53,626 bases of DNA from Bacilli bacterium. Lineage in GTDB: Bacteria; Bacillota_I; Bacilli_A; RFN20; CAG-826. A program made the translations under genes and the position numbers. Location: contig JAFSNY010000051.1 in assembly GCA_017447305.1 (NCBI GenBank), positions 1 through 53,626 on the forward strand. Reading direction: 5' to 3'. Under the pieces are notes generated by a model, which searched no databases, was not told the origin of the DNA, and saw only the letters and a program-made list of their open reading frames with translations. Positions 6,551 to 45,748 of the stretch are shown piece by piece. The first letter of the stretch is position 1. Each line of letters starts with the position of its first letter.

Positions 6551-6575
6551 TAATTGATTATTAAATTAAAAATTC

Positions 6576-6600
6576 AAAATCCAGTCTCGCACTGGGTTTT
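6576..6600 (+). terminator. Intrinsic terminator or attenuator between the two GLUG genes
   Basis: AAAATCCAG (6576-6584) pairs with CTGGGTTTT (6592-6600), with one G:U pair and a 7-base loop, and ends in a short T run. It lies 26 bases past the first GLUG stop and 25 before the next start. It may lower expression of the second gene rather than end transcription outright. Confidence 0.6.
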
Positions 6601-6624
6601 GTAACATTATAAGGAGGAATTGTC

Positions 6625-11607: not shown

Positions 11608-11613
11608 AAATAA

Positions 11614-13337: not shown

Positions 13338-13351
13338 ACATAGTTTCTCCT

Positions 13352-16169: not shown

Positions 16170-16171
16170 AT

Positions 16172-17802: not shown

Positions 17803-17812
17803 AATTTCCTCC

Positions 17813-18910: not shown

Positions 18911-18928
18911 CGTCTTTTCCTCCTTAGA

Positions 18929-20347: not shown

Positions 20348-20377
20348 ATCAAAAGACACTCCTATAGTTCTACTATA

Positions 20378-25024: not shown

Positions 25025-26365
25025 TTATAAATCAATTCTTTTTTGTGTATCTAAATCAAAGAAGTGGACTTTGTCTTCGTTAAAGCTAATATTGAAAACA
25101 TCTTCTGATTTCATTTCTACATTTGCAGATACTTTAATGATGATTCTTTGCCCGCAAATGTCACTATAAATAATCAATTCATGACCTAACAATTCAGATA
25201 ATTCTGCTTGCACTTTAAAGGCTTTATTTTGTTTACCTTGTTTAGTAATTGTGATATCTTCTGGTCTAATTCCAGTTACGAAATCAAATCTGCCTTCCTT
25301 TAATTCTTCCAGTTCACTTCCGTATCTTTCTTTTAAAGCAGCGAGTTTATTTATTCTTTCTTCTAATTTTGCTCTGTCGTTTTTATTTAATTTCTTTGTT
25401 ATTGGCTTTTGCTCTTCATTTTCAGATGAAGAAACAACGATGCATTCGTTATTCAATGATTCTTGGAGTTGACTAGATAACTCATCAATCTTCACAAGCA
25501 TTTCTTTAAGGTCAGACTCTTTTATTTCTTTATATTTTTTTAAAGATGTTAATTGAGTATCACTAATGTTATATTCAACTGAATCGTCATCATCTTTTCC
25601 TAAAATATAAACTTTATTATTATCGAAATGGCAGTTCAAAAAGTTCATTGCTGGGGATCCGATAAAGCCCCCAACAAACATATTGCTTGGGCAATTATAT
25701 ACTTCTTTAGGAGTGCCAATTTGTTGGATATAACCATCTTTCATAATGACAATACGATCCGCCATAGTCATAGCTTCTGTTTGATCATGAGTAACATAAA
25801 TGGTGGTGGCATTAACTTTCTTATGAATTCTAGTAATTTCACTTCTCATTTGAACACGCAACTTGGCATCTAAGTTGGATAATGGTTCATCCATCAAGAA
25901 TACCTTTGGAGTTCTAACAATTGCTCTACCTAAAGCAACACGTTGTCTTTGACCCCCAGATAGGGCTTTTGGCTTTCTATTTAAGTATTCTTCTAATGCC
26001 AATACCTTAGCAGCCTCTCTAACTCTGTTATCTATTTCTTCCTTCGGAAGGTGTTTCATTTTTAAAGCAAAGGCCATGTTATCATACACTGTCATGTGAG
26101 GATACAAAGCATAGTTTTGGAAGACCATAGCAATACCCCTGTTTTTAGGCAAAACATCATTAACAACGACATCATCGATGATAATGTCCCCAGATGTGAT
26201 ATCTTCAAGCCCAGCTAACATTCTAAGGGTAGTACTTTTTCCACATCCAGAAGGTCCAACAAGAACGATAAATTCTTTATCAGCAACTTCTAAATTGAAA
26301 TCAAAAACAGCTTGAACATTGTTGTCATAAATTTTGTTGACATTGACAAATTTGACAGTGGACAT
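25025..26365 (-). CDS. Carbohydrate ABC transporter ATPase (MsmK/UgpC type) with coiled-coil insertion
   Basis: The 446-residue protein has Walker [15 protein letters not shown] (near residue 37), Q-loop [10 protein letters not shown], signature [14 protein letters not shown], Walker [13 protein letters not shown] and switch His in [10 protein letters not shown]. Its C-terminal MOBE/TOBE region includes GIRPEDI. Members run about 360-380 residues; here a charged, coiled-coil-like block (about 265-350, [20 protein letters not shown] through [12 protein letters not shown]) is inserted in the regulatory region. Start 26365 is chosen because AGGAAGG precedes it. It energises the permeases encoded divergently at 28093 and 29058, though in this type one ATPase can serve several importers. 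Confidence 0.95.
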
Positions 26366-26427
26366 ACTAAAAACCTTCCTATTCATATTTTATTTTATAA
26401 ATATTAAAGGAAAAAGGAAATAAAAAT

Positions 26428-26561: not shown

Positions 26562-28091
26562 ATGAGCAAGAGACATTTAACAATGTTAGGAGTATTACCT
26601 TTTATCGTTTTTTCTACCACTGGATGTCAAGTTTCTAAAATCGAAACGAACGCCAATATTGATCAATGGTATGATAAGTCTACTGGCGAAATTAATATTG
26701 ATGAAGAAGTTGAAATTGAATGGTGGACTTGGGGTGGTCAAGCAGCGAACGAAATTTTCACCAATATTGCTAAAACCTTCTCCACAAAAGTATGCCCAAA
26801 TATTAAAGTTAAATACTCTAATTTCCCTAGTTCAAGCTATTTGAACACTCTTGCCAACTCATCTAACCATTTACCAGATCTATTCTTCATGCCTGATACA
26901 GACTTTTATGAATACGCCTTCAATGGTGTTGTTTGGGATTTTTCTAAATATCTCACTAGTGAAGAACTAAGTGATGTTTGGGAAGCCGGATATGAAAGAT
27001 ACATGTATAATCCTCAAACAAAGATTGTTGGTAACACTGAAGGAGCAGGGCTTTATGCTCTTCCAAAAGATATTTCCACTTTTTCTCTTTGCTACAATGA
27101 AAATTTAATGAAGGAATCTTGCACTAATCTTGGGCTTGATTATACAGAAATTAGAAATGAATATCTTAATGATAAAAAACCTATTAGCTGGGAAAAATTT
27201 ATCGAATTAGGACTAAAAATTAAACCTTATTTAGACCAAAAAGGTAACAAATTCTTCTTATCTCACTATGAACTTAACGCGGCGTTATTTTCAAACAACG
27301 CTGATTTCTTCTCTGATGATGGAAGGGAATCAAGAATTGAAGAGCCACAATTTGCTGGAGCTCTCGACTTCATGCATTCGCTAGCTCACGAATATGGCTT
27401 AATGGCTGGTGCTTCAGGTAGCAATACCACAACTGGCTACAATTCCTTTGTTGGAAAGAACTCTGTGTTCTCATTCTTTGGACCATGGGACTGTGAAGTC
27501 TTCTGGGGTGTAACAAGTACCGAAGAAGCAAAAGATTTTACCGTCAAAATGGTTCCAGTTCCTTATGGACCAGGTGCTGATGGTGTTTATAATACCGCTG
27601 ATGATGGAATGAGCACCGCTCAAATTGGTTCTGCAGGCTACTGTATTTCTAACAAGACATCAACCACAAACCTCCAAAGAGCAGCAGCTTTAAAATTCTG
27701 CAAATGGTTAACCATTAGTGAAGATGCTCAAAGACAACTTTATCAAATGGGTACACAACTTCCTAACTTAATTTCCATGAAAGATGAATACATCCAATTT
27801 GGACAAGGTATGGTTACAACTTATTCAGGTAAAAAGATTCCTGTTAACCCAAGTAATTTAGGTGCTTTTATCGATGTCGTTGATGGAAGTAGTGAAACCG
27901 ATCGTATCACTGGTAGAGCTAAACCAGAAACCCGTATCTTAACAAACGAATTCAAGACCGACTGGAGTAGAGTGGTCACCCAAACTAGATTCTGGGCCGA
28001 TGAGGATATGACTGGTGCTAGACTAGTTGAAGCTTATAAAGACATTTTGCAATCAAGAATAAATGACTCTAATGCCAAATTAGGAAGATAA
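26562..28091 (+). CDS. Sugar ABC transporter substrate-binding lipoprotein
   Basis: The 509-residue protein has a lipoprotein signal (FSTTGC, Cys about 23). The mature part starts with EVEIEWWTWGGQAANEIF, then LPDLFFMPDTDFYEYA, ALPKDISTFSLCYNENLM and FFGPWDCEVFW, the layout of family 1 extracellular solute-binding proteins that bind oligosaccharides. It is longer than the usual 420-450 residues. The N-terminal stretch NIDQWYDKSTGEINI is repeated in the broken gene at 47170. It is first in a plus-strand operon with two permeases directly after it. The bound sugar cannot be read from sequence; neighbouring GH43-fold genes suggest arabinose- or xylose-containing oligosaccharides. Confidence 0.95.
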   Translation: MSKRHLTMLGVLPFIVFSTTGCQVSKIETNANIDQWYDKSTGEINIDEEVEIEWWTWGGQAANEIFTNIAKTFSTKVCPNIKVKYSNFPSSSYLNTLANSSNHLPDLFFMPDTDFYEYAFNGVVWDFSKYLTSEELSDVWEAGYERYMYNPQTKIVGNTEGAGLYALPKDISTFSLCYNENLMKESCTNLGLDYTEIRNEYLNDKKPISWEKFIELGLKIKPYLDQKGNKFFLSHYELNAALFSNNADFFSDDGRESRIEEPQFAGALDFMHSLAHEYGLMAGASGSNTTTGYNSFVGKNSVFSFFGPWDCEVFWGVTSTEEAKDFTVKMVPVPYGPGADGVYNTADDGMSTAQIGSAGYCISNKTSTTNLQRAAALKFCKWLTISEDAQRQLYQMGTQLPNLISMKDEYIQFGQGMVTTYSGKKIPVNPSNLGAFIDVVDGSSETDRITGRAKPETRILTNEFKTDWSRVVTQTRFWADEDMTGARLVEAYKDILQSRINDSNAKLGR

Positions 28092-28092
28092 T

Positions 28093-29061
28093 ATGTCCAC
28101 CTTTGTCAACGAGTTTGAACTGGATCAAGTAGCTTATAAGCCTAAAACAAAGATTAAAAAAAGACCTAATAAGCTATTGAAACGCGAAAGAGGAGTAGCA
28201 TTTCTCTTCATTTTGCCACCAGTCATTAGTTTTAGTGTATTTACTGTCATCCCATTGCTCGTCACATTAGTTTTGGCTTTTGGAGATTTTAATATTCTTA
28301 CATTTGAATACAAATTTGTTGGCTTTCAAAATTTTGCCACCCTCTTAAATAACAATACAGTCGCCGGAAGAACCTTCCTTGATAGTGTGGTTACTACCTT
28401 GTGTTTTATCATTGAAGTTCCAATCGCTATCTTTTTAGGTCTTTTATGTGCGACACTTGCTAACTCTAAGGGATGTAAAAAAACAAATACCGTCTATCGT
28501 ATTTTGTTATATTTGCCAACCGTTTGTAGTGCGGTTGCAGCAAATATCATCTGGAGAATTATCTTTTTAGATGGTGCCTCCCCTGATTCTAGCGGTGTCA
28601 TTAACAACATTTTTGACATCACTGTTCAATGGACCAAGGAAAAAGTCCCTCTCATTACTGCAATTATTATCAAAAACTCTATTAACGGCATGGGTAGCGC
28701 AATGATTCTCTATTATGCTTCTATGTGTAACATTTCTAAAGAATACTACGAAGCTGCAGAAATGGATGGCGCAAACGGATTTCAAAGATTTGCGCATATC
28801 ACATTCCCTATGCTCACTCCTGTAACATTCTATTTATTAATCATGAGGATGTCGGGTTGTTTGCAAAGCTATGCCGATTCAGCAATCTTTGCAAACGGAA
28901 ATGCTAATGCACAGACTGTTGTTTACTATATTTGGTTCTATGGATTACACGAATATAACTACTCTCTAGCTTCTGCCGCGGCTATTTTGTTAGGTGTTGT
29001 TATTATGTCAATCACCATTGTTCAATTCAGATTATCTAATAAGTGGGTTTTAGATCTATGA
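28093..29061 (+). CDS. Sugar ABC transporter permease, MalF/UgpA type
   Basis: The 322-residue protein has six predicted membrane segments. The cytoplasmic EAA loop reads EYYEAAEMDGANGFQRFAHITFPML near residue 220, the site that docks the ATPase. The N-terminal FLFILPPVISFSVFTVIPLL is typical of the first permease of family CUT1. It begins one base after the binding-protein stop, and its own stop overlaps the next start as ATGA. It forms the channel together with the permease at 29058. Confidence 0.95.
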   Translation: MSTFVNEFELDQVAYKPKTKIKKRPNKLLKRERGVAFLFILPPVISFSVFTVIPLLVTLVLAFGDFNILTFEYKFVGFQNFATLLNNNTVAGRTFLDSVVTTLCFIIEVPIAIFLGLLCATLANSKGCKKTNTVYRILLYLPTVCSAVAANIIWRIIFLDGASPDSSGVINNIFDITVQWTKEKVPLITAIIIKNSINGMGSAMILYYASMCNISKEYYEAAEMDGANGFQRFAHITFPMLTPVTFYLLIMRMSGCLQSYADSAIFANGNANAQTVVYYIWFYGLHEYNYSLASAAAILLGVVIMSITIVQFRLSNKWVLDL

Positions 29062-30014
29062 AATACGTCGATGAAACAATACTAAGATTCCCTCTCGTTG
29101 GAAATAATAATTCAAGTCGCAGAAAAAATGTCGGTGCGGATGAGTTAACCGAAAAAGATATTCGAGACAGGAAAGATAAGATTAAAGGTATTATCGGTGG
29201 AATAATATCAAATTTAATCTTAGCTTTTCTTGCTTTCTTAGTATTATTTCCGCTTATCTTTATGGTTTTATCATCATTAAGAACATCGGATGAATACTTT
29301 GCACGTATTGCTTTCATGTTCCCAGAAAATTGGTTCAATTTCGATAACTATAAAAGAGTAATCGTTAATGCAAACTTACTTGTTGGGTATAAAAATACTT
29401 TAATTATTGTCGTCGCAGTTATTCCGTGTGGCACATTGTTTGCTGCGATGTCTGCCTTCTCGTTTGCAAAATTAAAACTCCGTCATAAACAATTTTGGTT
29501 GTTATTCCTTTTGAGTGGAATGATGGTTCCTGGCGCAGTTTTATTAATGCCAAGATATATTGCTTACCAAACAATTGGATGGATTGATACATTGTTGCCA
29601 CTTATCATTCCTCATTTGTTTATCCATGTTGGTACCATGTTTTTCTTCATCCAATACATGAAAGGCATTCCTTCTGAATTATTTGAAGCAGCGAAAATTG
29701 ATGGGTGTTCAACCTTTAGAATGTTCCTTCAAATTATGTTCCCTTTATTATTACCAGCTGTTGCCGCGCAAGATATCTTCTGGTTTATGGGAATCTGGAA
29801 TGATTATTTTGCTCCTTCCATTTATCTTAGATCATCAGAAAATATGACACTTCAAGTCATGATGGCATCACTAAATAGTTCATATATGGGTAGTGGAAAT
29901 CAAACCATCGTTTTTGCAGGCGCCGTTCTCAGTTGCTTACCAATGATTATTGTCTATTTAATATTACAAAAATTCTTTATCAAGTCGATGTCTATCGGCG
30001 CCGTCAAAGGATAG
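29058..30014 (+). CDS. Sugar ABC transporter permease, MalG/UgpE type
   Basis: This 318-residue partner permease has six membrane segments. Its EAA loop is ELFEAAKIDGCSTFRMFLQIMFPLL near residue 215, and it ends KFFIKSMSIGAVKG, a typical C-terminus for this subunit. I start at ATG 29058 (MKYVDETILRF), which overlaps the preceding TGA stop, rather than at an upstream GTG. The long N-terminal charged tail (about 55 residues before the first membrane helix) is somewhat longer than usual. Confidence 0.95.
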   Translation: MKYVDETILRFPLVGNNNSSRRKNVGADELTEKDIRDRKDKIKGIIGGIISNLILAFLAFLVLFPLIFMVLSSLRTSDEYFARIAFMFPENWFNFDNYKRVIVNANLLVGYKNTLIIVVAVIPCGTLFAAMSAFSFAKLKLRHKQFWLLFLLSGMMVPGAVLLMPRYIAYQTIGWIDTLLPLIIPHLFIHVGTMFFFIQYMKGIPSELFEAAKIDGCSTFRMFLQIMFPLLLPAVAAQDIFWFMGIWNDYFAPSIYLRSSENMTLQVMMASLNSSYMGSGNQTIVFAGAVLSCLPMIIVYLILQKFFIKSMSIGAVKG

Positions 30015-30018
30015 TACT

Positions 30019-32592
30019 ATGTCATTTCTAGGTTTTAGTAAATTATCAAAACTATCAGCTCTCATTGTTAAGGGCGCGCCTTTACTTTTGATGGCAACTT
30101 TATCAACTACTTATATAAACTATTCAAGCAACAAAGAAGTCGGACGCGACCAATTTGATTTTATAGCAAATGATATTAGTGAAAGCGAAATTGTTTTGGA
30201 TGGAGTTAAAGACAATGTATACGCTCCATTGGCGGTTGATTTTGGACTTAAATCAACATCGGCCGGATATGATTGTCGTTTATTCACATATCATGGAGAT
30301 CAAGCTTTATACCTATTTTTCGACGTGATTGACAAATATGTTACTAAGAGAGCAATTGGTAGTAATAATGCCCAAGATGAGGACGGCGTAGAAATATCTA
30401 TTGACTGTCTCCTTAATGGGGGAACCACTCCTCAAACAGATGATTTAAAAATTTATATCGATGTTTCTGGTTTTACTAAAGTATTAAGAGGAACCGGAAC
30501 TGCTTGGGGAAGTAGTGAAATTGGTTTCGGTGGTTCTCTAAAAAGCAAATTAAAAGACAACACCACTCCAAACGATAATAGTGATATTGATGAAGGGTAT
30601 TGCATGGAATATAGAATTCCTTACAGTTCCATCTCTGGCGAGGCAAATAAAGAAACTCCTCTTGCGTTTGCCTTTGTTCATGCTTCATTAAACGATGTAA
30701 CTGGTTCAAGAACCAGAACCGGTATGTCTGGCCATCCAAAATTCAAAGTTCCTACAGCAGATCAACCAGGTAGTTTCCCTGTCTTAACTAGCGATGATTG
30801 CTTCTATACGAGAAATGATTATAGAAACTTAAATGAAAACATGCCGACAGTGTTAGGAAAGGTTGTAAATAATAACAATGAGCCGTTAGAAAACGTTAAC
30901 ATCAACGGATATTACTCTAAAAAGCCTCGACAAATATATTCTAGAAAAACCGATAAAAATGGGTATTTCACCTTTGAAGACGTTAAAACCGATGACGATT
31001 TCATTGTAACTGCAAAAAAGAATGGATTATTGTCATATACGCTTAAATACGATTCCAGTAATTTGGTTAACGCAAATGGAGCGGAATATTATCAAGAATT
31101 CAAAATGATTTCTCAAACAACCGCTACCTCATCTTTATCAGGGAGCATTGCTGCACCCAATAACCAACCATTAAGCGGCTTTAAAGTTTCGCTTTTAGGA
31201 TATCTTGATTCCATGGTTACAACTGATGATCAGGGAAGATTCAATATCGATATTTACAAAAATAATGAAAATGTTTTAATTGCTGAAAAAGCAGGATTCG
31301 AAACAAAGCTATTTGAAGTAGATGAGCAAAAACTAACTGGTAATACCATAAAAATGTTCAGCAAGACGATAACGCTTGCTAAACCAGTCACTACAACATT
31401 AATTCATAACTATGTTAATGCAGGTATTTCTCGTGATGAAACTGGAATATATCTAAAAGCGGAATCGCCATATATCATTAAAGATAATGAGGTCTTGTCC
31501 TTATATTTAAATACAGGAAACAAGTCATCTTTTGATAACGATTACGCGAATGGTGATTATCGAATTGATTACGTAAATGAGTCACTTGAGATTTATAAAT
31601 TTAGTGAGGATACACATCAGTTTTCATTGCTAAATAACGTTGGAAAAGATGTTGAAGTTAATGTCACATATAAGGTTTTATACGAAACGGCATTTTATCT
31701 TCCATACGATTTATTTGAATTAGATAGTAACGACACCATTGGCGCAGCTATTGGATTCTTTGATGGAAATGACTATCAAGATAATTTTATTGGAGACGAA
31801 ATTGCTAAAGATGGTGAATTAGATACTTCCTCCACCGCAACATATTTAAGATTTGACAGTGAAGGGAATGTCTATTTCGGAAACAATAATGTCGATACTA
31901 ATTTCTTATACTATTACCATGGTGTAGATGGTGCAGTAGCAGAAGACATCCCTAATAACGCCGACAGAATTTACATGACATATGAGAGAGATGATAGTGG
32001 TATTGAAATGAAAGTCGTAGTTAATGGTAATTTTTCAACGCACTTCAACACTTCATATAACATTGCGGGTATTGAGGCTATTAATATCTTATTTAACATT
32101 GATGGTTTAGATTTGACAGCATGGGCTTTGTCCCAAAAAGGATCATCTTGTTATGACTTTAACTTGAGGATTTATAGCGACGACACTATTTGTTATGTCA
32201 ATTCTGGCGATTTAAAGAATCAAGGTAGTAACCAAATGTGGTGGTCTGATGCCGCTCATAACAATGGAGTAGCAAAAAACTTCACTCTAAATTCTAAAAC
32301 TGTCTCCAAAGACAAATATGAAATTGAAAAACATGCAGGATATTCAGTCTATACACTTAAGTTTTCATATGACGATTTACTCTTATTTGGTGGAGCTCCA
32401 AGTAATACGACATTAACTGCTTCTGATTCAATTGGAACACTAATATATGAAGTAAGTGAAACAAGCAAAACAACTATTAGATTTTATACCAGCAGTGGTG
32501 ATGCTTGGCTATTTAAAAATAAATCTCTTCAAAAGACCATTGGTGTATTTTCTTCACAAGCCAATTATGTGTCTTTAGAAATGAACAAATAG
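30019..32592 (+). CDS. Exported multidomain protein with CBM9-like and carboxypeptidase-regulatory-like domains
   Basis: The 857-residue protein has an N-terminal hydrophobic segment (about 18-32) but no lipobox cysteine. Residues about 50-270 look like a family 9 carbohydrate-binding or related beta-sandwich domain (EIVLDGVKDNVYAPLAVDFG, then ALYLFFDVIDKYVTKRA and DGVEISIDCLLNG). Two carboxypeptidase-regulatory-like beta-sandwiches follow (about 285-360, VLGKVVNNNNEPLENVNING; and about 375-450, SLSGSIAAPNNQPLSGFKVS). The C-terminal 400 residues are again beta-rich and may hold two more sandwiches of the first type. No catalytic motif is seen. Four bases separate it from the permease, so it belongs to the uptake operon, probably as a surface polysaccharide binder. 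Confidence 0.82.
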   Translation: MSFLGFSKLSKLSALIVKGAPLLLMATLSTTYINYSSNKEVGRDQFDFIANDISESEIVLDGVKDNVYAPLAVDFGLKSTSAGYDCRLFTYHGDQALYLFFDVIDKYVTKRAIGSNNAQDEDGVEISIDCLLNGGTTPQTDDLKIYIDVSGFTKVLRGTGTAWGSSEIGFGGSLKSKLKDNTTPNDNSDIDEGYCMEYRIPYSSISGEANKETPLAFAFVHASLNDVTGSRTRTGMSGHPKFKVPTADQPGSFPVLTSDDCFYTRNDYRNLNENMPTVLGKVVNNNNEPLENVNINGYYSKKPRQIYSRKTDKNGYFTFEDVKTDDDFIVTAKKNGLLSYTLKYDSSNLVNANGAEYYQEFKMISQTTATSSLSGSIAAPNNQPLSGFKVSLLGYLDSMVTTDDQGRFNIDIYKNNENVLIAEKAGFETKLFEVDEQKLTGNTIKMFSKTITLAKPVTTTLIHNYVNAGISRDETGIYLKAESPYIIKDNEVLSLYLNTGNKSSFDNDYANGDYRIDYVNESLEIYKFSEDTHQFSLLNNVGKDVEVNVTYKVLYETAFYLPYDLFELDSNDTIGAAIGFFDGNDYQDNFIGDEIAKDGELDTSSTATYLRFDSEGNVYFGNNNVDTNFLYYYHGVDGAVAEDIPNNADRIYMTYERDDSGIEMKVVVNGNFSTHFNTSYNIAGIEAINILFNIDGLDLTAWALSQKGSSCYDFNLRIYSDDTICYVNSGDLKNQGSNQMWWSDAAHNNGVAKNFTLNSKTVSKDKYEIEKHAGYSVYTLKFSYDDLLLFGGAPSNTTLTASDSIGTLIYEVSETSKTTIRFYTSSGDAWLFKNKSLQKTIGVFSSQANYVSLEMNK

Positions 32593-32603: not shown

Positions 32604-35114
32604 ATGAATAAAAGATTACCGATTATATTTGTTAGTTTAATCCTCTTGTTAAGTGGATGTAATAAACCCAATGACCAAAAGGGAGATAGCGAAACCCCAA
32701 ATTTGGATGATGTTTCATTCCCTGATGATGGTGATGAAAGTGATGTTACTCCGCCAGCTGAAGTTCTACCAAATGAAGGCGATGAAGCTATCCAACCATT
32801 ATCGATTGATATCAATCCAAACTATTTTGATAATACTTCCCTACATAATTTATCCGGGCAATGGAGTGGATATGGTGTCCATTATCCATCGGTTTTGAAA
32901 TATGACGATACATATTATCTCTATCAATCAACTCCAGATAGCAACGTAGGAATTAGAGCCTTTAAATCTTATGATCTTTTGAACTGGGAATTTACAACAA
33001 GAGCAGGATTCCCATTAGGTTACATTACCAAGGATAAACTTACTTATGGTGCAAAGGCCCCACAAGTTTTAAGAATCGATGAAGCGTTCTACTTATCGTA
33101 TAAATCATCGGATGGGTATTATATTTTTTCATCTGATTCACCAGAAGGCCCGTTTAATTATTATGACAAATTGAATTTTGATTCAGAATATATTTGCCGT
33201 TACTATAAGGCTCCTACAGGAAAATTATTCTTAATTACTGGCGGTGACTTTGAAGTTGAAATATATGAAATGAAATCATTAACCGAGGTTGATCAAAATA
33301 GTAAAGCCATCGTTAGTTCAACAGCGTTGAGCTCACACTATGGGGCTAAGGCCAAGGCTGATTTCCCTTCATTGTTTGATTATAACGATACGCTTTATTT
33401 AACATATTCATCACAAATTGAATCGTTAGTTAGTTATCGTACATATTTGGTTTCCGCATTTAGTCCTGATTATTCATCAAGCGCTAGTCTTGCTTCTTCT
33501 TTTTATAATCAAAACATGGGTCCGTTATTAATTAACACCAATGAAGATAATGGCTCACGTGGTCTTGGTGATTTATCCATTATCGAAGGGAATGATTTAG
33601 TTTCACACTATGCCGTGTATTCTTCGTATGAAACCGCTAATGTAAGAAGACTCAACATTTCCCCAATTTTCTTTGATAAGGCCAACGTATCAATCTCACA
33701 TCGTGATGAAAGATCATTTATCATTGATAACGAAAGATACTATGTTGAAGATAAAAACGAAGAGATTGTTTTATCTGATAATCAAACGTCAGATAAGTTT
33801 AATGCTTACTACCACACTAATGCCGTGGAACAAATCTACTTTGGATACACCTCTAAGAACAACAACTATTCTCTAAAATTTAGCGAAAATCTTGTCTCGT
33901 TACTATTAAGAGAAAACGGACTTGAATCCACCTTAACAAGTAAAAAAATAAATGGAAAAGAACACGAAATCGTCGTGGAGTATGACGGTGAATTGTCTAT
34001 TGATATTGATGGCGAAATATTTGTAAAGAATCTTTTCTTAAACAAAATTCCAACCGGAAAGATTGGCTATAGAAAGGGTAGTGGAGTTATTGGGAAAGTA
34101 TTTTATGTAAACGCCACCAAAGAAGAGAACAATCAAGAAATGGTTAAATATGCAGAAAGCAATATCCATGCTGACATGTATTTAGCTAGTGAATCCAATA
34201 TTCAAAATGAAGAAAAGGTAAAAACTATTGGAGATAAATATCAAGATTTATTTGGCTCTTCATACCTGAATATGAAAAATAATAAGGATTACGCCAGATT
34301 CCTTGTTGATATAAAAGAAGATGGAAGATATGGTGTTGAACTTGTCTATAATGCTTCATTTGGCAAACATCAATCGACATTAGGACTTAGGTTAGGACTC
34401 AACCAAGAAATGATGTTCAAAACATCCTATGTTGCTGAAAAAGGATATGTGAGAACGTTAACTGCCGAGTTTAATGTTGACCAAGGAGTTAACGAGTTAT
34501 TAATTGAAAACCTTTCAAATGACGCCTTGCGCCTTGTTAGTGTTAGAGTTGTTAAGGTGTCAAATGTCCTTCCATCATATGAAAACAAACTTGATGCTTA
34601 CGCTGAAAGTGGTGTTAAGTACGTTACAGATTTTAGAATTAATAGTTTTTATAAAGCTCACGAAACATATGAAGGCGCTCGTTGTTTTGCATATATCGGA
34701 GATAATACTATTACCGATTTTACCATGAATATCGAAGTTGGGTTCTTAGGTGGTATATCAACCGAGGGATATGTTGGGCTAGGATTTAGATGTGATAATT
34801 TTGCATCTTCGAGCTTAGATGATGATGAAAGTTTGGTTGGATATTATTTAGAAATTTCACAATATCAAACCCGATTAATGAAACATAACTATGGATATGG
34901 ACAAACTATTGGAGTAGTAGATCTTGTTAACTCTATTGGTGACTTTTATAACTACAAGTTAGTCATGAAAGGAAACACAATGAGAATATATAAAGAAGAA
35001 ACATTGATTTTCACGTTTACTGATCAATTTGCTTTTTCATCTGGACATCTAGCGATTGGCTCAAATGACACGAATGGATTAATTAGAAAACTTCGTGTTT
35101 CACCAGCGGAATAG
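32604..35114 (+). CDS. GH43-fold lipoprotein, active site lost
   Basis: The 836-residue lipoprotein (lipobox LLSGC, Cys about 19) has a GH43-type five-bladed propeller at about 75-385, aligned by eye with its two downstream neighbours. All three catalytic positions are changed. The DP base motif reads VHYPSV, the DGTL motif reads CRYYKAP, and the EGP acid motif reads ADFPS. The metal/water His in GLGH is Asp (GLGD). After the propeller come a CBM6-like sandwich (about 565-655, YARFLVDIKEDGRYGVEL) and a LamG/DUF1080-like domain (about 670-836). Hydrolysis is unlikely, and a surface binding role is more plausible. AGGAGGAAG precedes ATG 32604. Confidence 0.85.
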   Translation: MNKRLPIIFVSLILLLSGCNKPNDQKGDSETPNLDDVSFPDDGDESDVTPPAEVLPNEGDEAIQPLSIDINPNYFDNTSLHNLSGQWSGYGVHYPSVLKYDDTYYLYQSTPDSNVGIRAFKSYDLLNWEFTTRAGFPLGYITKDKLTYGAKAPQVLRIDEAFYLSYKSSDGYYIFSSDSPEGPFNYYDKLNFDSEYICRYYKAPTGKLFLITGGDFEVEIYEMKSLTEVDQNSKAIVSSTALSSHYGAKAKADFPSLFDYNDTLYLTYSSQIESLVSYRTYLVSAFSPDYSSSASLASSFYNQNMGPLLINTNEDNGSRGLGDLSIIEGNDLVSHYAVYSSYETANVRRLNISPIFFDKANVSISHRDERSFIIDNERYYVEDKNEEIVLSDNQTSDKFNAYYHTNAVEQIYFGYTSKNNNYSLKFSENLVSLLLRENGLESTLTSKKINGKEHEIVVEYDGELSIDIDGEIFVKNLFLNKIPTGKIGYRKGSGVIGKVFYVNATKEENNQEMVKYAESNIHADMYLASESNIQNEEKVKTIGDKYQDLFGSSYLNMKNNKDYARFLVDIKEDGRYGVELVYNASFGKHQSTLGLRLGLNQEMMFKTSYVAEKGYVRTLTAEFNVDQGVNELLIENLSNDALRLVSVRVVKVSNVLPSYENKLDAYAESGVKYVTDFRINSFYKAHETYEGARCFAYIGDNTITDFTMNIEVGFLGGISTEGYVGLGFRCDNFASSSLDDDESLVGYYLEISQYQTRLMKHNYGYGQTIGVVDLVNSIGDFYNYKLVMKGNTMRIYKEETLIFTFTDQFAFSSGHLAIGSNDTNGLIRKLRVSPAE

Positions 35115-35123
35115 GAGAATATT

Positions 35124-37700
35124 ATGAAGAAAAAGATTATTATTTCTACTCTATTCCTTGCTTGTTTGATTATTTCTAGTTGTCAAACAAACAATCGCCA
35201 ATCTTCTGAATCTGATGATGTCGAAAGACCAAATAGCCAGGGAAGCGTTATTGATTATGATGTTGAGTATTATAACAATAATGATTTTAACAACTACGTT
35301 TTAAACGGCAATTCTATTATTGACAATCAATGGGAAAATTATGGAATTTCTTCTCCATATATTCTCCGTTATAACGGAATGTATTATCTATACTCATCAA
35401 CAACGGTTAATGACACTGTAAGTGGTGTTCGTGCATGGAAATCTAGGGATTTAATTCATTGGGAAAAAGTGATAACCGAAGGACTTAAACCGGGGTATGT
35501 TGTTGCTCATACTGTCGGCGCTACTTTAAATGCCCGCGCTCCTGAAGTGTATTACTATGCCGGAAGTTTTTACATGTTCGAGTCCTACAATAAAGGAAGT
35601 GGGCATTTTGTTTTAAAAAGCGATTCTCCAGAAGGGCCATTTGTTTCATTAACCAACGGAGCTATTGATTCACTTTATGATGGAACATTGGTTTTTGACA
35701 AAGATGAAAACCCATATTTTGTTACCGCTCATAAAAACAACATTAATATTTCCACCATGGAAAGTATCAATTCCATTATTGAGACTGAATTAGTGGTCAA
35801 AGGAACTGATTCTTATAGCGGTTTATATGCTGAATCACCATCTATATTTGAACATATAGGTAAATATTATTTGCTTTATTCGTCCGGATACAGCACAACG
35901 GATGGTTATCAAATTAATTATGCTGTTAGTGATGGATGGGAAAATGAAACTCCAGGCGGATTTGCTCAGTCATTTAAAAAGGGTGCCTCAGATAGATTAT
36001 TGCTGAACGCGGATAAGAATAATGGTTTTACTGGTTTAGGACATCCTTCTGTATTTTTAGGACCAGATTTAGATAGCTACTATGTTACTTACGATTGTTT
36101 AGATGATAATTTATCTAATCGTTTCAGTATGAATATTGATCGATTAATCATGGATGGCGATTTATTATCAACTTCTCATAACCGATATAATTCTATTAGA
36201 CCAAAAATGGCTGATTTTGTAAGTGAAGATGGTTCTAATTTGGTCGATGATGGCGATTTCTTGCTTTCAGATGTTACTAGCGACAGCACATTCTCCGTTG
36301 AGTATAACTTTAAAAATGCTGATAAATCCAAACTAGTGTTCTCTTATGTTGACAGAGACAACTATGGTTATGTTGCTGTTAATATGAATTCTTCTATCGC
36401 CCTACACAAAGTTAGCAATGGTAATGATGAGTTAATTGAAGAAGTTGAATTTTATCATTATTTTTCCAATGGCGATTTGCATACAATTCGTCTATCTTAT
36501 CGCGATAAGAAGTTTGACTTGCATTTTGAAAATTCACTTAAGATTTCCAACTTAGATGTAGAGTTAAGCGGAGGAAAAATCGGTTATTTAAAGAGCGACG
36601 AATTAGAAATCAATTACACATGTTTTTCAAATGTAGCTAGAGGGCTAAGCGATCAAATTGAAATTAAACAATCAAATATGACTATTCCTGCTAATGCATA
36701 TATGAAAGATAATCAAATTGATGGATTGTCTTCTTATTTGTTCAACCATGAAAGCGGAGTTTATTCTCGTGAAGAAGATGAATACAAAAATGTCGGGGAA
36801 TTAAAGTTTAACCAGAAATATGATTACGCAAGATACTTAGTTAATTTCAATAAATCTGGTAGGTATGCCCTCGAGATGACCATGGACAAAGATAATCTAG
36901 ACAAAGATATCATTTTTGAAATTGATGATAAAAAGGATGTTGAACTACATATTCCAAACATCAATGAAGTTGACAAAGATGTTGTCACTATTAGGCTTGG
37001 CGATTTCAATATCGAACAAGGCATCCATCAATTTAAGATTCAAAACAATAGCCACGAGTTATCGTTTATTTCATTTAGATTTGTTCCTCAAAGTGAAAAA
37101 GGATATTCATTATTAGCGACACTTAAAAATGAAAAATCAGTCAGAGGAATGGTTTTTGGCACAGATTCTAGATGGAACTTTATCGATGAGAAGATGGTTT
37201 CTTACGACAATCACAGAAATATCGCTTTAACCGAAGAGAATGGTTTGAGTGATTTAAATATGAGTGTAGATATCGCTTTGACTGGCAGCAGTTCTATCTT
37301 CGCAGAATCTAAACAGTCTGGAATCATCTTTAGATGTAATAATTATGTATCTTATAAAGATTATCTTGATAAATATTCTGATTTAGCAATGTGGAACAAT
37401 CGTTTCTATGAACTTCAAGGGTATTATTTAGCTTTTACCTCTAGGAAGATTGAGCTCTATCGTTTCAATGGCGATTTTAATCACTACAATATTCTTGATT
37501 CACTCGATTATGATTTCGGAAGCCGCGTGAATAGAAATGTCATTATGAAAATCAAAGGTAATCAGTTTGATTTATTTATTGATAACCAATTTGTTAAGTC
37601 TTATTACGACGCTCAAGCATTTACTTCTGGATCGGTTGGGGTATACACCACTGGCGCAGAAGTGACATATCAAAATTTAAAAATACAATCAACATTCTAA
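35124..37700 (+). CDS. GH43-fold lipoprotein, catalytic base replaced
   Basis: The 858-residue lipoprotein (ISSC lipobox, Cys about 20) shares the domain order of its neighbours: GH43 propeller (about 65-380), CBM6-like sandwich (about 570-655) and LamG-like domain (about 670-858). The conserved ADPYI of the catalytic base reads SSPYI, so the Asp is Ser. The pKa-setting Asp remains (YDGTLVFDKD), as does the acid Glu (YAESPSI) and the His of GLGHPS. It is thus half-preserved between the intact enzyme at 37715 and the eroded one at 32604. It may bind or hold substrate; weak activity cannot be excluded. It begins nine bases after the preceding stop. Confidence 0.87.
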   Translation: MKKKIIISTLFLACLIISSCQTNNRQSSESDDVERPNSQGSVIDYDVEYYNNNDFNNYVLNGNSIIDNQWENYGISSPYILRYNGMYYLYSSTTVNDTVSGVRAWKSRDLIHWEKVITEGLKPGYVVAHTVGATLNARAPEVYYYAGSFYMFESYNKGSGHFVLKSDSPEGPFVSLTNGAIDSLYDGTLVFDKDENPYFVTAHKNNINISTMESINSIIETELVVKGTDSYSGLYAESPSIFEHIGKYYLLYSSGYSTTDGYQINYAVSDGWENETPGGFAQSFKKGASDRLLLNADKNNGFTGLGHPSVFLGPDLDSYYVTYDCLDDNLSNRFSMNIDRLIMDGDLLSTSHNRYNSIRPKMADFVSEDGSNLVDDGDFLLSDVTSDSTFSVEYNFKNADKSKLVFSYVDRDNYGYVAVNMNSSIALHKVSNGNDELIEEVEFYHYFSNGDLHTIRLSYRDKKFDLHFENSLKISNLDVELSGGKIGYLKSDELEINYTCFSNVARGLSDQIEIKQSNMTIPANAYMKDNQIDGLSSYLFNHESGVYSREEDEYKNVGELKFNQKYDYARYLVNFNKSGRYALEMTMDKDNLDKDIIFEIDDKKDVELHIPNINEVDKDVVTIRLGDFNIEQGIHQFKIQNNSHELSFISFRFVPQSEKGYSLLATLKNEKSVRGMVFGTDSRWNFIDEKMVSYDNHRNIALTEENGLSDLNMSVDIALTGSSSIFAESKQSGIIFRCNNYVSYKDYLDKYSDLAMWNNRFYELQGYYLAFTSRKIELYRFNGDFNHYNILDSLDYDFGSRVNRNVIMKIKGNQFDLFIDNQFVKSYYDAQAFTSGSVGVYTTGAEVTYQNLKIQSTF

Positions 37701-37714
37701 TTGGAGGTTTCGTT

Positions 37715-40186
37715 ATGCCTGAAAAAAATATTTTAGATGAATCCAAAGGTTACAAAATTAAAGACAACAAAGTCCGCTATTTTGATAATATTCGCTTTAA
37801 TAATTTCGATAATGGTGGATTTGATACTAGTGTTGTCAAAGGACAATTCCCTACAGGGTGTGCTGATCCATACATTATGAGATATAACGGCATGTACTAT
37901 CTTTATGTAACCACCAGTGGTCTTACCAATTACGGATTGCGTGCATGGAAATCAAGAGATTTGCTCAATTGGGTACAATGTCAAGGAAAAGGACTCCCTC
38001 TAGGCTATGTTATTGATAACAAAGATGAAAATGGAAGATATACGCAAAATGCCTATGCTCCAGAAGTTTATTATTTTAATGGGAAATTCTATATGATTAT
38101 TTCTCCGGGTCCAGAAGCGGTTTCCGAGTTTCGTGGTCATCGTATATTGGTGGCCGATAATCCTGAGGGGCCATTCGAAGCTCATAGTGAACAAATTGAT
38201 CGTCGAATTGACGGAACGTTGTTAATTGATGATGATGAATCGATATATTTTGGCCATGCCACCCCATTTGGCATTACCATCCATGAAATCAGTAACATGA
38301 AAGATCTTGGCGATGGTGCATTAATTAAAGCAAGTGATGGCACCGGAGCGTGGACTGAAGGACCGGGATTTTTAAAGGTTAGAGGTCATTATTATTTAAC
38401 TTATACTGGATGTCATTATCAAACACCTGGATATCAAGTTATTTATGCTGAAACAGATAGATTAGATAAAACTGATATCCAAACTGTTGCTGATTCGTTT
38501 AAAAGAGGGGCAAACCGTGTTGTTTTATTAAACTGCGATAAGGATGAAGGACATGTTGGACTAGGACACTCCATAAATTTCATGGGCCCAGATTTAGATA
38601 GCTATTATATTTGTTATCACAATCTCGATGTCTTATATAAAGATGGAATGACACATCGTTCATTTAATATTGATAGGCTGTTAATTAAGGACGGATTGAT
38701 GACTTCTGCGCAAAACCTAAAGGGAACCGTTTATCCACGTTGGCCTATGTTTGAATCTTATGGACTTGATGGATTTGAACAATCTAAGCACCTCTTATTA
38801 TCAAAAAAAGATGGTAAAAGAAGATTCTCTGCTGAATTCAACTCTAAAGGTGGAAAAGACATCAAATATTTATTCTCATATATTGACGAAAAGAACTATT
38901 GTTATATCCACCCTCTATACAATGACCATCTAATCAAGTGCGTTGAAGTTAAAGATGGAAAAGAAAAATTATTAGGCGAAGGAAAACTTAAATATTTATA
39001 TTCCATTGATGATAATCAAACGATTCGTATAGCCTATGATGGAAAATTAAATGTATATTTCAATAACCTATTAAAAATTTCATTGGATATCAATGTTTCA
39101 AAAGGAAAGATTGGATACATGTATTTATCTGATGATATTGAAATTGGTTACAGCGCAATTTCTGATGAAGCAAATGGAAGTTCGGATAGACACGAATATA
39201 AACAAGCGTTAGGAGAAATCCCGGCCTCTTTATATCTTGACGAGGAAGGGCAATATCAATTAAAAGAAAAAGAACCCCAACCATTAGAAGGTCTTAACAG
39301 CGAATATAGCTACACCAAAGAGGTCGTTTTTAAAGATAAATATGATTTTGTAAGGTATTTACTTAACTTCAAAGAAGATGATAATTACGGCCTTGTTTTA
39401 GCGTTAAGAAAGGAACATCTAGGAAAATCATTACTAATAGAATTTGATGATGAGCCAGATCAAATAATCAAACTGCCTGAACCATTCCAAACCAGCGAAG
39501 ATATTGTAAAAGTATTTATCAAGTTAGATAAGAAGATTAAAAAAGGTCTTCACTTATTAAAGATTCAGAGTGTTGAAGAAGGATTCTCTCTTATTTCCTT
39601 TAGATTCTCGCCATATCTTACTCAATTTGACTACGATAGCAAACTAAAGGAAGACACATTTGGTATTCATTTTGTCACCCCGGGTTATTGCCATAATAAG
39701 GAAGATGCTGAACTAGTAGTGGAAGGAAGAAGAGATTTTGCCTTCATTTCTCATCAAAGATTAATTGATGTCACTATGGAGGCAGATATTCGTCTCGACT
39801 CAGTTACAGAAGAAAAAGGATCTATCGGATTAATGATTAGGCAAAATAATTACGCTTATTCTGATGTCCCAAAACAAAACTTTAAAGATGCAAATACACA
39901 TATTCAGGGTTATTATTTGGAAGTAAAACCGAATAAAGTTGCTCTTAACAGATATAACTTTGGAGATGTCAAGTCTTATGAATTGATTCATAAAGATTTT
40001 GACAATCTCTTAGGTCAATATCATCACTATCAAATTGATGTTATAGGCAATGTTTTTACCATTTATATGGATAAAAAATTACTGTTTAGCGTTTCTGATC
40101 CACTTGCTTTTGAGACGGGAGCAGCAAGTTTATATTCGTATAGATGTAAAGGCGCCTACAAGAATATAAAAGTTAGAGGCAAATAA
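37715..40186 (+). CDS. Cytoplasmic GH43 glycoside hydrolase with intact active site
   Basis: The 823-residue protein has no signal peptide. Its GH43 domain (about 35-350) keeps the base Asp (TGCADPYIMRYNGMYYLY), the modulating Asp (RRIDGTLLIDDDE), the acid Glu (WTEGPGFLKV) and the His in VGLGHSINFMGPDLDSYY. CBM6-like (about 540-630) and LamG-like (about 650-823) domains follow, as in the two paralogues before it. GH43 enzymes are mainly beta-xylosidases, alpha-L-arabinofuranosidases or arabinanases. Being cytoplasmic, it should cut the oligosaccharides brought in by the ABC transporter. A TTGGAGG site precedes ATG 37715. Binding modules on an intracellular enzyme are unusual and suggest descent from a secreted one. 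Confidence 0.92.
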   Translation: MPEKNILDESKGYKIKDNKVRYFDNIRFNNFDNGGFDTSVVKGQFPTGCADPYIMRYNGMYYLYVTTSGLTNYGLRAWKSRDLLNWVQCQGKGLPLGYVIDNKDENGRYTQNAYAPEVYYFNGKFYMIISPGPEAVSEFRGHRILVADNPEGPFEAHSEQIDRRIDGTLLIDDDESIYFGHATPFGITIHEISNMKDLGDGALIKASDGTGAWTEGPGFLKVRGHYYLTYTGCHYQTPGYQVIYAETDRLDKTDIQTVADSFKRGANRVVLLNCDKDEGHVGLGHSINFMGPDLDSYYICYHNLDVLYKDGMTHRSFNIDRLLIKDGLMTSAQNLKGTVYPRWPMFESYGLDGFEQSKHLLLSKKDGKRRFSAEFNSKGGKDIKYLFSYIDEKNYCYIHPLYNDHLIKCVEVKDGKEKLLGEGKLKYLYSIDDNQTIRIAYDGKLNVYFNNLLKISLDINVSKGKIGYMYLSDDIEIGYSAISDEANGSSDRHEYKQALGEIPASLYLDEEGQYQLKEKEPQPLEGLNSEYSYTKEVVFKDKYDFVRYLLNFKEDDNYGLVLALRKEHLGKSLLIEFDDEPDQIIKLPEPFQTSEDIVKVFIKLDKKIKKGLHLLKIQSVEEGFSLISFRFSPYLTQFDYDSKLKEDTFGIHFVTPGYCHNKEDAELVVEGRRDFAFISHQRLIDVTMEADIRLDSVTEEKGSIGLMIRQNNYAYSDVPKQNFKDANTHIQGYYLEVKPNKVALNRYNFGDVKSYELIHKDFDNLLGQYHHYQIDVIGNVFTIYMDKKLLFSVSDPLAFETGAASLYSYRCKGAYKNIKVRGK

Positions 40187-40201: not shown

Positions 40202-42697
40202 ATGAAAAAAGCGATTAAAAACCTATTTATTATCTTAACAAGCACTTTGGTGACTCTTTCGATGACTTCCTGCAATAAGAAAGCGCCGACACCTAGTGAA
40301 TCAACTGTTTCTGAGTCGAAAGAATCAGAATCTAATGAATCGACAGAATCGAAACCTGATGAATCAACAGAGCCAAAATCTGAAGAATCAACAGAATCGT
40401 CACACAGCGACGGCACTTCAGAAGTTCACGACCACACATATGATGGGTATGAACATGATGAAACAAGTCACTGGCAAGTGTGTTCTATTTGTGGCGAAAG
40501 TACAGCAAAAGAAAACCATAGAGGTGGTACAAGCACCTGCACACAAAAAGCGATTTGTGATGTTTGCGGAGCAGAATATGGTGAATTAGACGAACACCAA
40601 TATGGTGAATGGGAATTTGTTGATGGTGAAGAAAATCACTTTAAAGAATGCTCTGTTTGTCATGATAAAGTTTATGAACAGCATAGTTTTGTTCTTGAAG
40701 TAGTTTCTGAAGATGCATTGAAAGGCGAACTTGATACTTCTTGTGATGGTTCAAATACATATTACAAGTCCTGTGTCTGTGGTGCTCATTCACATAACGA
40801 AGAAGATACATTTGTTGTTGATAATCACCACGAATATACAGTGGAAGAGGTGCTAGAAGGAGATGTGAATCTCATTTCTCCTGCCACATGTGAAGAGGCA
40901 GCTGTTTATGGAAAGGTTTGTGAACATTGTCACACCGCATTCTCTACTGAATTAACCTTTGAGAGTGGTGATCCAAAAGGACACACATTAGAACATTTTG
41001 AAGAATTATTATCATTCTCTCAATATCATTCTGAATATTATCACTGTAAAGAATGCGATAAATATTTTGCTGATGCTGACGGAACTATTGAAAAAGATAT
41101 CGACGAAATATTTGATGATACAAAGGCTCAATATGGAGATGATGAATATGGAACAGAAGAAAAACCATATTTAATTGCTGACAAAGCAGACTTATCTGCG
41201 ATGAGAAGTGAAATCAATGGTTCTAAAGATACTTTTGAAGGGAAATATATCAGCCTAGTTGCAGACCTAGATTATGAAGAAGAGGAATTCACAAGCGTTA
41301 TTGGTGTCGGAACCAAAAACAACTGTTTCAAAGGGACCTTTGATGGTCAAAACCACATCATTTCTGGATTATCATTAACAAGAGAAGCTGGATGTTTAGC
41401 CTTATTTGGTAATGCTATTGGCGCAACTATTAAAAATCTTAAATTAGATAATATTGATTTCTATGCTAATTCTGAAACAGCAAACACTGCTCAAAGAGTA
41501 GCTGGATTTGTTGGAAGAGCCGAGAATGTCACCATCGAAAACTGTCACGTCTTAGGCGGAAGTATTAATGGTTCTAAACAAAATGGCGGCATCGTTGGTG
41601 TCCTCATTAATGGTGGCGTTATTAGAAATTGCTCTAACGCTGCTTCCGTATCAACAAGCGACATTGGTTCTGGCGGTATCGTTGGTGTTATTTTAAGAAC
41701 TGGCGATTTAGGCGGAGAAGCGATAATTGAAAATTGCACTAATTATGGCGTAATCACTGCAGGCACAAAAGGTGTTGGCGGAATCCTCGGTATCGTTATG
41801 CGTAACAGCGATAAAGATCAAGTAGGAGTGACCAATGTTGTTGGCTGCAAAAACGAAGGAGCCATCAATGCCGGTAATTCCGATGGCGCAGCAGGTATTG
41901 TTGGATGGCATAATGAACCTGCTGGAGTATTAAATGTCTCCTACTGTTCTAATGCTGGAAGAGTTTATCGCGCCGCGGGTGGTTATGGTACTGCTGGTAT
42001 TCTAGGAATTAATATTAATAACGCCGTTGTTCATATTTCTAAATGTAAAAATACAGGAGATATTTCTGCACTAGGTGCCCAGTATGTTGGTGGAATTATC
42101 GGATTAGGAAGAGTTCCAAATGATAACACCATCACAGATTGCTATAATTCAGGCAATGTTGAAGGTTCGCAGAAAGCTAATGTCGGTTTTATTGCTGGCT
42201 GTAATAGAAACACAATTAGTAATGTTGAAGTCGATAAAAGTGCTGTTGCTAAATCCTCTGATGGATTAGAAATCACTGCAGGAGAAGCCATTGATCCTAA
42301 GGCAACAGGCAATGCTTCATACAACTATGTCTATGGCGCCCAGGATAATAATGGCAAAACTGTAGTGGAATCCACTCGTACTATTACTCCTATAGAAGTA
42401 TCATTTACTATCAACTATGCCACTGAATTTGGCTATTCTGTTTATCTAATTGGTAGTTTCAATAGATGGAGCGATGAAAGCGAAAAGGCCGATAATAGAT
42501 ATCAATTAACTTGGAACGAAGGTAATGATTGGACTGGAACATTCGTCTTTGCAGAAGGCGACACTATTGAATTTAAAGCAGTAATTGCAGGTAGTGGATT
42601 TGATCAAGCCATTACTACTTGGGAAAGCGGTTCAAATAGAACCTTGGTTATATCCTCTGAAATGGAAAGAAACCAAGTTCTAAATTGGCAAGCATAA
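40202..42697 (+). CDS. Lipoprotein with Ser/Glu linker, Cys-rich domain, GLUG repeats and CBM20
   Basis: The 831-residue lipoprotein (SMTSC, Cys about 24) is followed by an acidic Ser/Glu-rich linker (about 33-75). A cysteine/histidine-rich part (about 78-300) holds repeated pairs: CSIC, CDVC, CSVC, CVC, CEHC and CKEC, each near HxxxxW or HY text, a zinc-ribbon-like pattern of bacterial surface proteins. GLUG repeats (about 310-690) share the block layout of the other paralogues. The C-terminus (about 730-831: YSVYLIGSFNRWSDESEK, then FKAVIAGSGF and WESGSNRTLVI) matches CBM20, the starch-binding module. It closes the uptake operon just before a strong terminator. It is probably a cell-surface glycan binder; no catalytic domain is visible. 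Confidence 0.88.
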   Translation: MKKAIKNLFIILTSTLVTLSMTSCNKKAPTPSESTVSESKESESNESTESKPDESTEPKSEESTESSHSDGTSEVHDHTYDGYEHDETSHWQVCSICGESTAKENHRGGTSTCTQKAICDVCGAEYGELDEHQYGEWEFVDGEENHFKECSVCHDKVYEQHSFVLEVVSEDALKGELDTSCDGSNTYYKSCVCGAHSHNEEDTFVVDNHHEYTVEEVLEGDVNLISPATCEEAAVYGKVCEHCHTAFSTELTFESGDPKGHTLEHFEELLSFSQYHSEYYHCKECDKYFADADGTIEKDIDEIFDDTKAQYGDDEYGTEEKPYLIADKADLSAMRSEINGSKDTFEGKYISLVADLDYEEEEFTSVIGVGTKNNCFKGTFDGQNHIISGLSLTREAGCLALFGNAIGATIKNLKLDNIDFYANSETANTAQRVAGFVGRAENVTIENCHVLGGSINGSKQNGGIVGVLINGGVIRNCSNAASVSTSDIGSGGIVGVILRTGDLGGEAIIENCTNYGVITAGTKGVGGILGIVMRNSDKDQVGVTNVVGCKNEGAINAGNSDGAAGIVGWHNEPAGVLNVSYCSNAGRVYRAAGGYGTAGILGININNAVVHISKCKNTGDISALGAQYVGGIIGLGRVPNDNTITDCYNSGNVEGSQKANVGFIAGCNRNTISNVEVDKSAVAKSSDGLEITAGEAIDPKATGNASYNYVYGAQDNNGKTVVESTRTITPIEVSFTINYATEFGYSVYLIGSFNRWSDESEKADNRYQLTWNEGNDWTGTFVFAEGDTIEFKAVIAGSGFDQAITTWESGSNRTLVISSEMERNQVLNWQA

Positions 42698-42720
42698 CGA
42701 TATAAACAAACAATTCTAGG

Positions 42721-42745
42721 AAGGCGGCGAACCCGCCTTTCTTTT
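42721..42745 (+). terminator. Intrinsic terminator of the sugar-uptake operon
   Basis: AAGGCGG (42721-42727), loop CGAAC and CCGCCTT (42733-42739) form a G+C-rich hairpin followed by TCTTTT. It lies 24 bases past the stop of the CBM20 lipoprotein gene and ends the 16-kb plus-strand operon. Confidence 0.9.
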
Positions 42746-42795
42746 AGGTTTATAAAAAACTATGATTAATTTTTTATAAAAAACAACAAAATAAG

Positions 42796-42812
42796 CAAAA
42801 ATAATTTTCATA
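42796..42812. promoter_or_regulatory. Exact copy of the shared 17-base motif upstream of the SGNH lipoprotein gene
   Basis: AAAAATAATTTTCATAA here is identical to 20445-20461. It lies 131 bases before ATG 42944. I see no convincing -35/-10 pair for that gene; weak TATATT and TATAAG boxes occur at 42912 and 42925. The rest of the 246-base gap holds only the terminator. Confidence 0.4.
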
Positions 42813-42943
42813 AAAATAGTCTTTGTATCTTCAAATAGTGACTAAAAATGAAAAAATATTTCTAAATTATTTATCGCATGTTATCATTGAATTGAAAAAA
42901 AGTTTAAAAATTATATTTTTAGATTATAAGAGAGGTCATTTAT

Positions 42944-45733: not shown

Positions 45734-45748
45734 AGGAGGAGAGTAATT

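Follow-up and report, generated by a model that had tools for sequence, protein, structure and literature searches.

Several lines of evidence in the present study reveal that damage to the active site among three tandem GH43 genes of a gut-type Bacilli bacterium is long-standing, has been maintained and is confined to this triple. The genes lie within a stretch of 53,626 nucleotides (the window), which is contig 46 of a draft genome of 1.59 Mb (92% complete), and a profile search of this draft genome returned three GH43 matches, all of them copies 1-3. The genes are arranged head to tail with intergenic gaps of 9 and 14 bases. Copy 1 (32604..35114, +; 836 aa) encodes a degenerate GH43 propeller followed by beta-sandwich, CBM6-like and CBM66-like domains and is a predicted lipoprotein, as assigned with PF04616, the residue table and an AF2 model; copy 2 (35124..37700, +; 858 aa), assigned with PF04616 and the residue table, is a predicted lipoprotein and a GH43 homologue that lacks the base Asp and keeps the modulator, acid, His and Arg; and copy 3 (37715..40186, +; 823 aa), assigned with PF04616, a GGAGG site before its ATG and an AF2 model, is an intact GH43 without a signal peptide that is predicted to be cytoplasmic. 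The PF04616 scores are 63.5, 99.1 and 112.6 bits for copies 1, 2 and 3, each above the cut-off of 32.2, and the three neighbouring paralogues described in an earlier sequence-only reading are present with the motifs quoted there. Automatic annotation would label all three copies as active GH43, implying secreted hydrolysis.

The subsite -1 set of copy 3 is complete by alignment and comprises the general base Asp51 (37865..37867, +), the pKa modulator Asp166 (38210..38212, +), the general acid Glu215 (38357..38359, +), the conserved His285 (38567..38569, +) and the conserved Arg321 (38675..38677, +; also from the residue table), each of which corresponds to a conserved residue of 4qqs. Asp51, Asp166 and Glu215 align with both 4qqs and 3kst, and all five orthologues conserve them, giving copy 3 the GH43 catalytic set of Asp base, Asp modulator and Glu acid; the earlier description of this gene as intact, based on ADPYI, IDGTL, TEGP and GLGH, is consistent with the match of D51, D166, E215 and H285 to 4qqs. 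Compared with copy 3, copy 2 carries SSPYI (D to S at the base) and retains DGTL, AESP and GLGH, and among the five subsite -1 sites only the base is altered (Ser77; 35352..35354, +; residue table and conserved-column comparison), as had been noticed from the SSPYI motif. In copy 1, the residue table places Tyr94 in VHYPS (D to Y) at the general-base position (32883..32885, +; Asp in intact members), Ile197 in SEYICRY (D to I) at the pKa-modulator position (33192..33194, +), Asp253 in ADFP (E to D) at the general-acid position (33360..33362, +; Glu in intact members), Asp323 in GLGD (H to D) at the conserved-His position (33570..33572, +) and Pro354 (R to P) at the conserved-Arg position (33663..33665, +; Pro in all five copy-1 orthologues). 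The sequence-only reading had already listed VHYPS, ADFP, GLGD and the missing DGTL, and the change of Arg to Pro is found in addition. In a solved GH43 xylosidase, the -1 sugar is held directly by the base, modulator, His and Arg and through water by the acid (PMC5919610). Because the lost residues hydrogen-bond the -1 sugar in that enzyme, whose residues were equated with the sites of copies 1-3 by order and spacing, copy 1 appears to have lost the sugar-holding subsite as well as catalysis, and any binding would therefore have to take place in a rebuilt funnel or through domains at the C-terminus. Judged by these residues, copy 1 is very probably non-catalytic, which we hold with strong confidence, and copy 2 is probably non-catalytic, which we hold with moderate confidence.

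The same graded pattern was observed beyond the host. Among the 224 family genomes searched, triples occur in five genomes from four genera, namely the host, G029 (reindeer MAG contig CAJOLV010000017), G242 (RUG14619 contig CADCGC010000002), G162 and G044. The residue and leader table covers 45 sequences, including 30 homologues outside the triples, which come from Clostridia and from Bacilli both within and beyond this family. First, the copy 3 orthologues are leaderless and complete for D/D/E/H/R in five of five genomes. Second, the copy 1 orthologues have lost the base, modulator, acid, Arg and the APEV Glu in all five genomes (and thus three of three members of the GH43 catalytic set) and the His in four, such that copy 1 keeps 1 of the 25 subsite -1 cells formed by five positions in five genomes. 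The replacement letters across the five genomes are T, S, S, H and Y at the base, N, T, E, L and I at the modulator and Q, T, T, D and D at the acid, and this variation fits relaxed constraint and speaks against the fixation of a new catalytic residue there. Third, the copy 2 orthologues carry Ser at the base in four of five genomes, with the modulator kept in all five and the acid Glu in four (the acid is Asp in RUG14619), and copy 2 of G044 keeps the base and has Ser in place of the His. Outside the triples, the base, modulator, acid and His are kept in 30 of 30 homologues, the single exception being a row truncated at the N-terminus that falls short of the base, and the Arg is kept apart from one Lys and one truncated row. 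The pattern is beyond chance: the homologues outside the triples are intact and the split recurs in five genomes. No member of the copy-1 lineage was found beyond the family in 279 genomes of the order or 395 sampled genomes of the class. A candidate second case of pseudo-GH43 lipoproteins in G065, G193 and G196 was rejected, since the lipoproteins of 556-561 aa that adjoin the GH43s there are themselves GH43 proteins, and in the two compared with copy 3 the base Asp and the acid Glu are both retained. Elsewhere in the family, leaderless intact GH43 proteins of about 700 aa adjoin intact lipoprotein GH43s at five loci (L042, L048, L076, L077 and L078), some of them accompanied by a GH2 gene, an inside and outside pairing without pseudoenzymes.

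The loss of the base Asp alone is no proof of inactivity in copy 2, because the GH43_24 exo-beta-1,3-galactanases (Pc1,3Gal43A, BT3683 and Ct1,3Gal43A), which like copy 2 have the GH43 fold without the general-base Asp, remain active with a conserved Gln, Gln263, as the base (PMC7939473). By analogy, copy 2 might still be hydrolytic in the absence of the canonical base, with Asp324 or some other residue, or a water relay, in its place, and the loss of one base could be tolerated through another mechanism with the acid, modulator, His and Arg kept. The four base-less copy-2 orthologues retain the modulator, His and Arg, with Glu as the acid in three and Asp in one, and all four keep Asp324 (36093..36095, +), which stands in place of an otherwise invariant core His (H302 in copy 3) and is the only new conserved acid at a core site of the copy 2 GH43 domain. 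However, the sequence columns show no conserved Gln gained by the base-less copy 2 and none specific to it, core residues near the acid have also changed (W213, G216, T229, G232 and H302), and the appearance of Asp as the acid in one orthologue, together with a G044 copy that keeps the base yet has lost the His, looks like decay at varying points. We therefore regard hydrolysis by copy 2 as unlikely, and favour a non-catalytic copy 2 whose old active site could still bind.

The predicted fold is meanwhile kept in copies 1 and 3. PF04616 identifies the GH43 domain in copies 1-3, and the AF2 models give a five-bladed propeller for copy 1 (pLDDT 88.2, pTM 0.87) and copy 3 (pLDDT 89.6, pTM 0.91), which match the GH43 structure 4qqs in Foldseek with a TM of 0.76 and an rmsd of 3.4 for copy 1 and a TMt of 0.78 for copy 3. 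The triple thus resembles GH43 (PF04616; nearest solved members 4qqs and 3kst) in the propeller of all three copies by profile and in the D/D/E/H/R set of copy 3, and differs in the absence of every catalytic residue from copy 1 and of the base from copy 2, and in the presence of three extra beta-sandwich domains. One of these, a beta-sandwich at about residues 388-502 of copy 1, was revealed by the secondary structure of the model, where it separates the propeller from the CBM6-like domain, and it gave no meaningful match in Pfam or PDB sequence searches; at the C-terminus lies a domain akin to levanase CBM66, with a PF06439 match below its cut-off. A shared order of propeller, CBM6-like and LamG-like domains had been described previously, and the single architecture across the three copies stands, but the number of domains is four, the middle beta-sandwich having been overlooked.

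The predicted locations of the copies follow from their N-termini. Copy 1 has a hydrophobic leader with the lipobox LSGC at Cys19 and copy 2 has one with ISSC at Cys20, and a lipobox, called by pattern without a trained predictor, is present in 10 of 10 copy 1 and copy 2 orthologues. The ATG of copy 3 lies just behind a GGAGG site and is followed by a polar N-terminus without a hydrophobic leader. An alternative upstream start that would give copy 3 a leader was rejected, as no in-frame ATG, GTG or TTG follows the preceding stop and a strong GGAGG stands at the ATG. These features agree with the earlier suggestion that the intact copy is cytoplasmic and the damaged pair are lipoproteins, the cytoplasmic location of copy 3 being predicted from the absence of a leader alone.

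In the phylogeny, each copy forms its own clade with 100/100 support and with the same branching order, in which G044 branches first and the host groups with G162, so the duplications and the loss in copy 1 predate the split of the five genomes. Support for the grouping of copies 1-3 to the exclusion of 16 intact homologues is 95/95, and was 88/81 in an earlier tree that included more distant rows; the root of copies 1-3 was taken from the outgroup. The base of copy 2 was lost either after the split from G044 or independently. Most full-length homologues outside the triples have lipoprotein leaders, and two further class-level homologues, L083 and L085, were likewise read by eye as intact lipoproteins. 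Because most of the full-length outgroup proteins with intact sites are lipoproteins, the ancestor in the simplest history was probably an active surface enzyme, from which the intact copy lost its leader and the surface copies lost catalysis. The duplication and graded loss proposed in the sequence-only reading are upheld by these trees and by the five genomes, but the order of events is revised, in that it was probably the intact copy that lost its signal peptide. The change of surface copies into binding proteins, also suggested there, is plausible.

The constraint on the three copies differs between domains. Orthologue identity in the GH43 domain is 80% for copy 3, 58% for copy 2 and 47% for copy 1, and in the C-terminal domain it is 52%, 43% and 48%, respectively; relaxed constraint is strongest in the former catalytic domain. 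Likewise, 99% of the propeller core columns are kept in copy 3, 82% in copy 2 and half in copy 1. Copies 1 and 2 are nevertheless selected proteins and not pseudogenes, because in both the second codon position shows roughly half as many differences as the third. The loss of catalytic residues by itself would fit decaying genes kept by chance alone, but full-length frames, leaders and lipoboxes persist in five genomes at 37-59% identity and the codon-position bias points to purifying selection; the frames and the bias led us to reject this explanation, which is barely credible. Conserved columns also reveal new invariant residues, H93, Y172, E273 and P354 in copy 1 and D324 in copy 2, and these could mark a new site. 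A different use of the new residues would be a catalytic site acquired anew through residue migration and acting on a different linkage, for which the conserved new acids D230 and E273 of copy 1 and D324 of copy 2 might be candidates. The former catalytic positions of copy 1 drift freely, however, its conserved propeller core is broadly lost and no paired acid/base set is conserved across copies 1 and 2, and we consider such a gain very improbable. In another scenario, copies 1 and 2 would be surface scaffolds, sensors or partners in protein complexes and not propeller-based glycan binders, in line with the complete loss of subsite -1 residues in copy 1, its four new invariant residues, and the partner roles described for many pseudoenzymes (PMC5106787 and PMC11266112). 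Because their C-terminal lectin-like domains are under about the same constraint as that of copy 3 and the genes lie in a glycan importer operon, we judge this scenario fairly unlikely, and glycan binding remains the reading that we prefer.

The genes upstream of the triple, identified by profile and synteny, encode an ABC importer comprising an SBP_bac_1 solute-binding lipoprotein (26562..28091, +) and two permeases (28093..29061, + and 29043..30014, +), followed by an exported protein with CarboxypepD_reg domains (30019..32592, +) that lies directly upstream of copy 1 in five of five genomes; a sugar-ABC ATPase (TOBE_2; 25025..26386, -), identified by profile, is divergent from the importer. 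The order from the solute-binding protein through the two permeases and the exported protein to copies 1, 2 and 3 recurs in the other four genomes, that of G044 being split by a contig break before copy 3, which lies at the end of a separate contig (C69), so that its adjacency to copy 2 was deduced from the contig ends. In G044, the block of importer and triple continues directly, on one strand, from a sugar catabolic cluster corresponding to 10210-18910 of the window. AraA (PF02610) and XylA (TIGR02630) gave no match in the five triple-bearing genomes, and an arabinose or xylose product processed by the usual isomerases was therefore rejected; the released sugar may be neither arabinose nor xylose, or may be used by another route.

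The catabolic cluster beside the triple is itself conserved (10210-20359 in the window; also L081, L082 and L040). It encodes an AGE-type isomerase with a weak match to sulfoquinovose isomerase, a PfkB kinase, a class II aldolase, a fused electron-transfer flavoprotein, an XylB-like FGGY kinase, an aldose epimerase, IolB (above the NCBIfam cut-off), an Fe-S protein and an FAD oxidase, the last with 91-95% identity between genera, exceeding most neighbours. A search for solved relatives of the product of 10210-11607 found none. A predicted lipoprotein of 762 aa (22380-24668) is conserved in the cluster, with about 51-70% identity over the parts seen in relatives, and had no match in Pfam, NCBIfam or PDB. 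The regions 40202-47128 and 3905-10137 encode large exported proteins that belong to this set, among which CBM20 and a GDSL esterase domain occur in one protein each and M26-like stretches in two, and homologues of both groups occur together downstream of the triple in RUG14619 (L080), in an order that differs from that of the window.

Herein, we propose an explanation for the triple which we favour with slightly more confidence than doubt. First, an ancestral surface lipoprotein GH43 enzyme of an ABC-importer operon would have been duplicated twice before the five genomes diverged. Copy 3 would then have shed its signal peptide and become a cytoplasmic exo-enzyme that cleaves imported oligosaccharide, and the surface copies would have become pseudoenzymes, copy 1 without the whole of subsite -1 and copy 2 mainly without the general base. 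Copies 1 and 2 may capture or retain glycan at the surface and feed the neighbouring solute-binding protein and permeases, with hydrolysis taking place inside the cell so that sugar is not set free. As a hypothesis, the likeliest role of copies 1 and 2 is to capture glycan for the adjacent ABC importer. A more specific version, a conserved Gram-positive system of capture outside and cutting inside in which copy 2 would bind with the former active site and copy 1 with a newly formed surface, is offered more tentatively and falls a little short of an even chance. The SusD-like and other surface glycan-binding proteins of Bacteroidota PULs capture glycan at the surface for an importer, the same work as is proposed for copies 1 and 2; the analogy is functional only, as the fold of SusD-like proteins is unrelated and the importer beside the triple is a Gram-positive-type ABC system.

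Pseudoglycosidases themselves are a known kind, and some keep glycan binding (PMC7828330). YKL-39 (GH18), klotho (GH1) and CyRPA (GH33-like), which bind glycans or sugar-mimics, have, as copies 1 and 2 appear to have, a glycosidase fold with lost catalysis and a possible binding role, but these are eukaryotic, whereas copies 1 and 2 are bacterial lipoproteins with an intact, predicted cytoplasmic paralogue in one operon. The GH28 polygalacturonase pseudoenzymes of beetles are also inactive paralogues beside active family members; however, they come from the insect gut and are reported to lack pectin binding (PMC8213348). This lack of substrate binding, together with the absence of -1 sugar-binding residues in copy 1, counts against the capture role. 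In a limited search of the open-access literature, bacterial pseudoglycosidases of carbohydrate loci seemed little described, and no bacterial operon combining graded surface GH43 pseudoenzymes with a relocated active paralogue was found. If the proposed explanation is true, the surface proteins of this operon do not cut and hydrolysis stays private to the cell. The triple would then represent, within one operon and across five genomes, a natural series for the change from a glycosidase to a binding protein, running from the intact copy through the loss of one residue to the loss of all.
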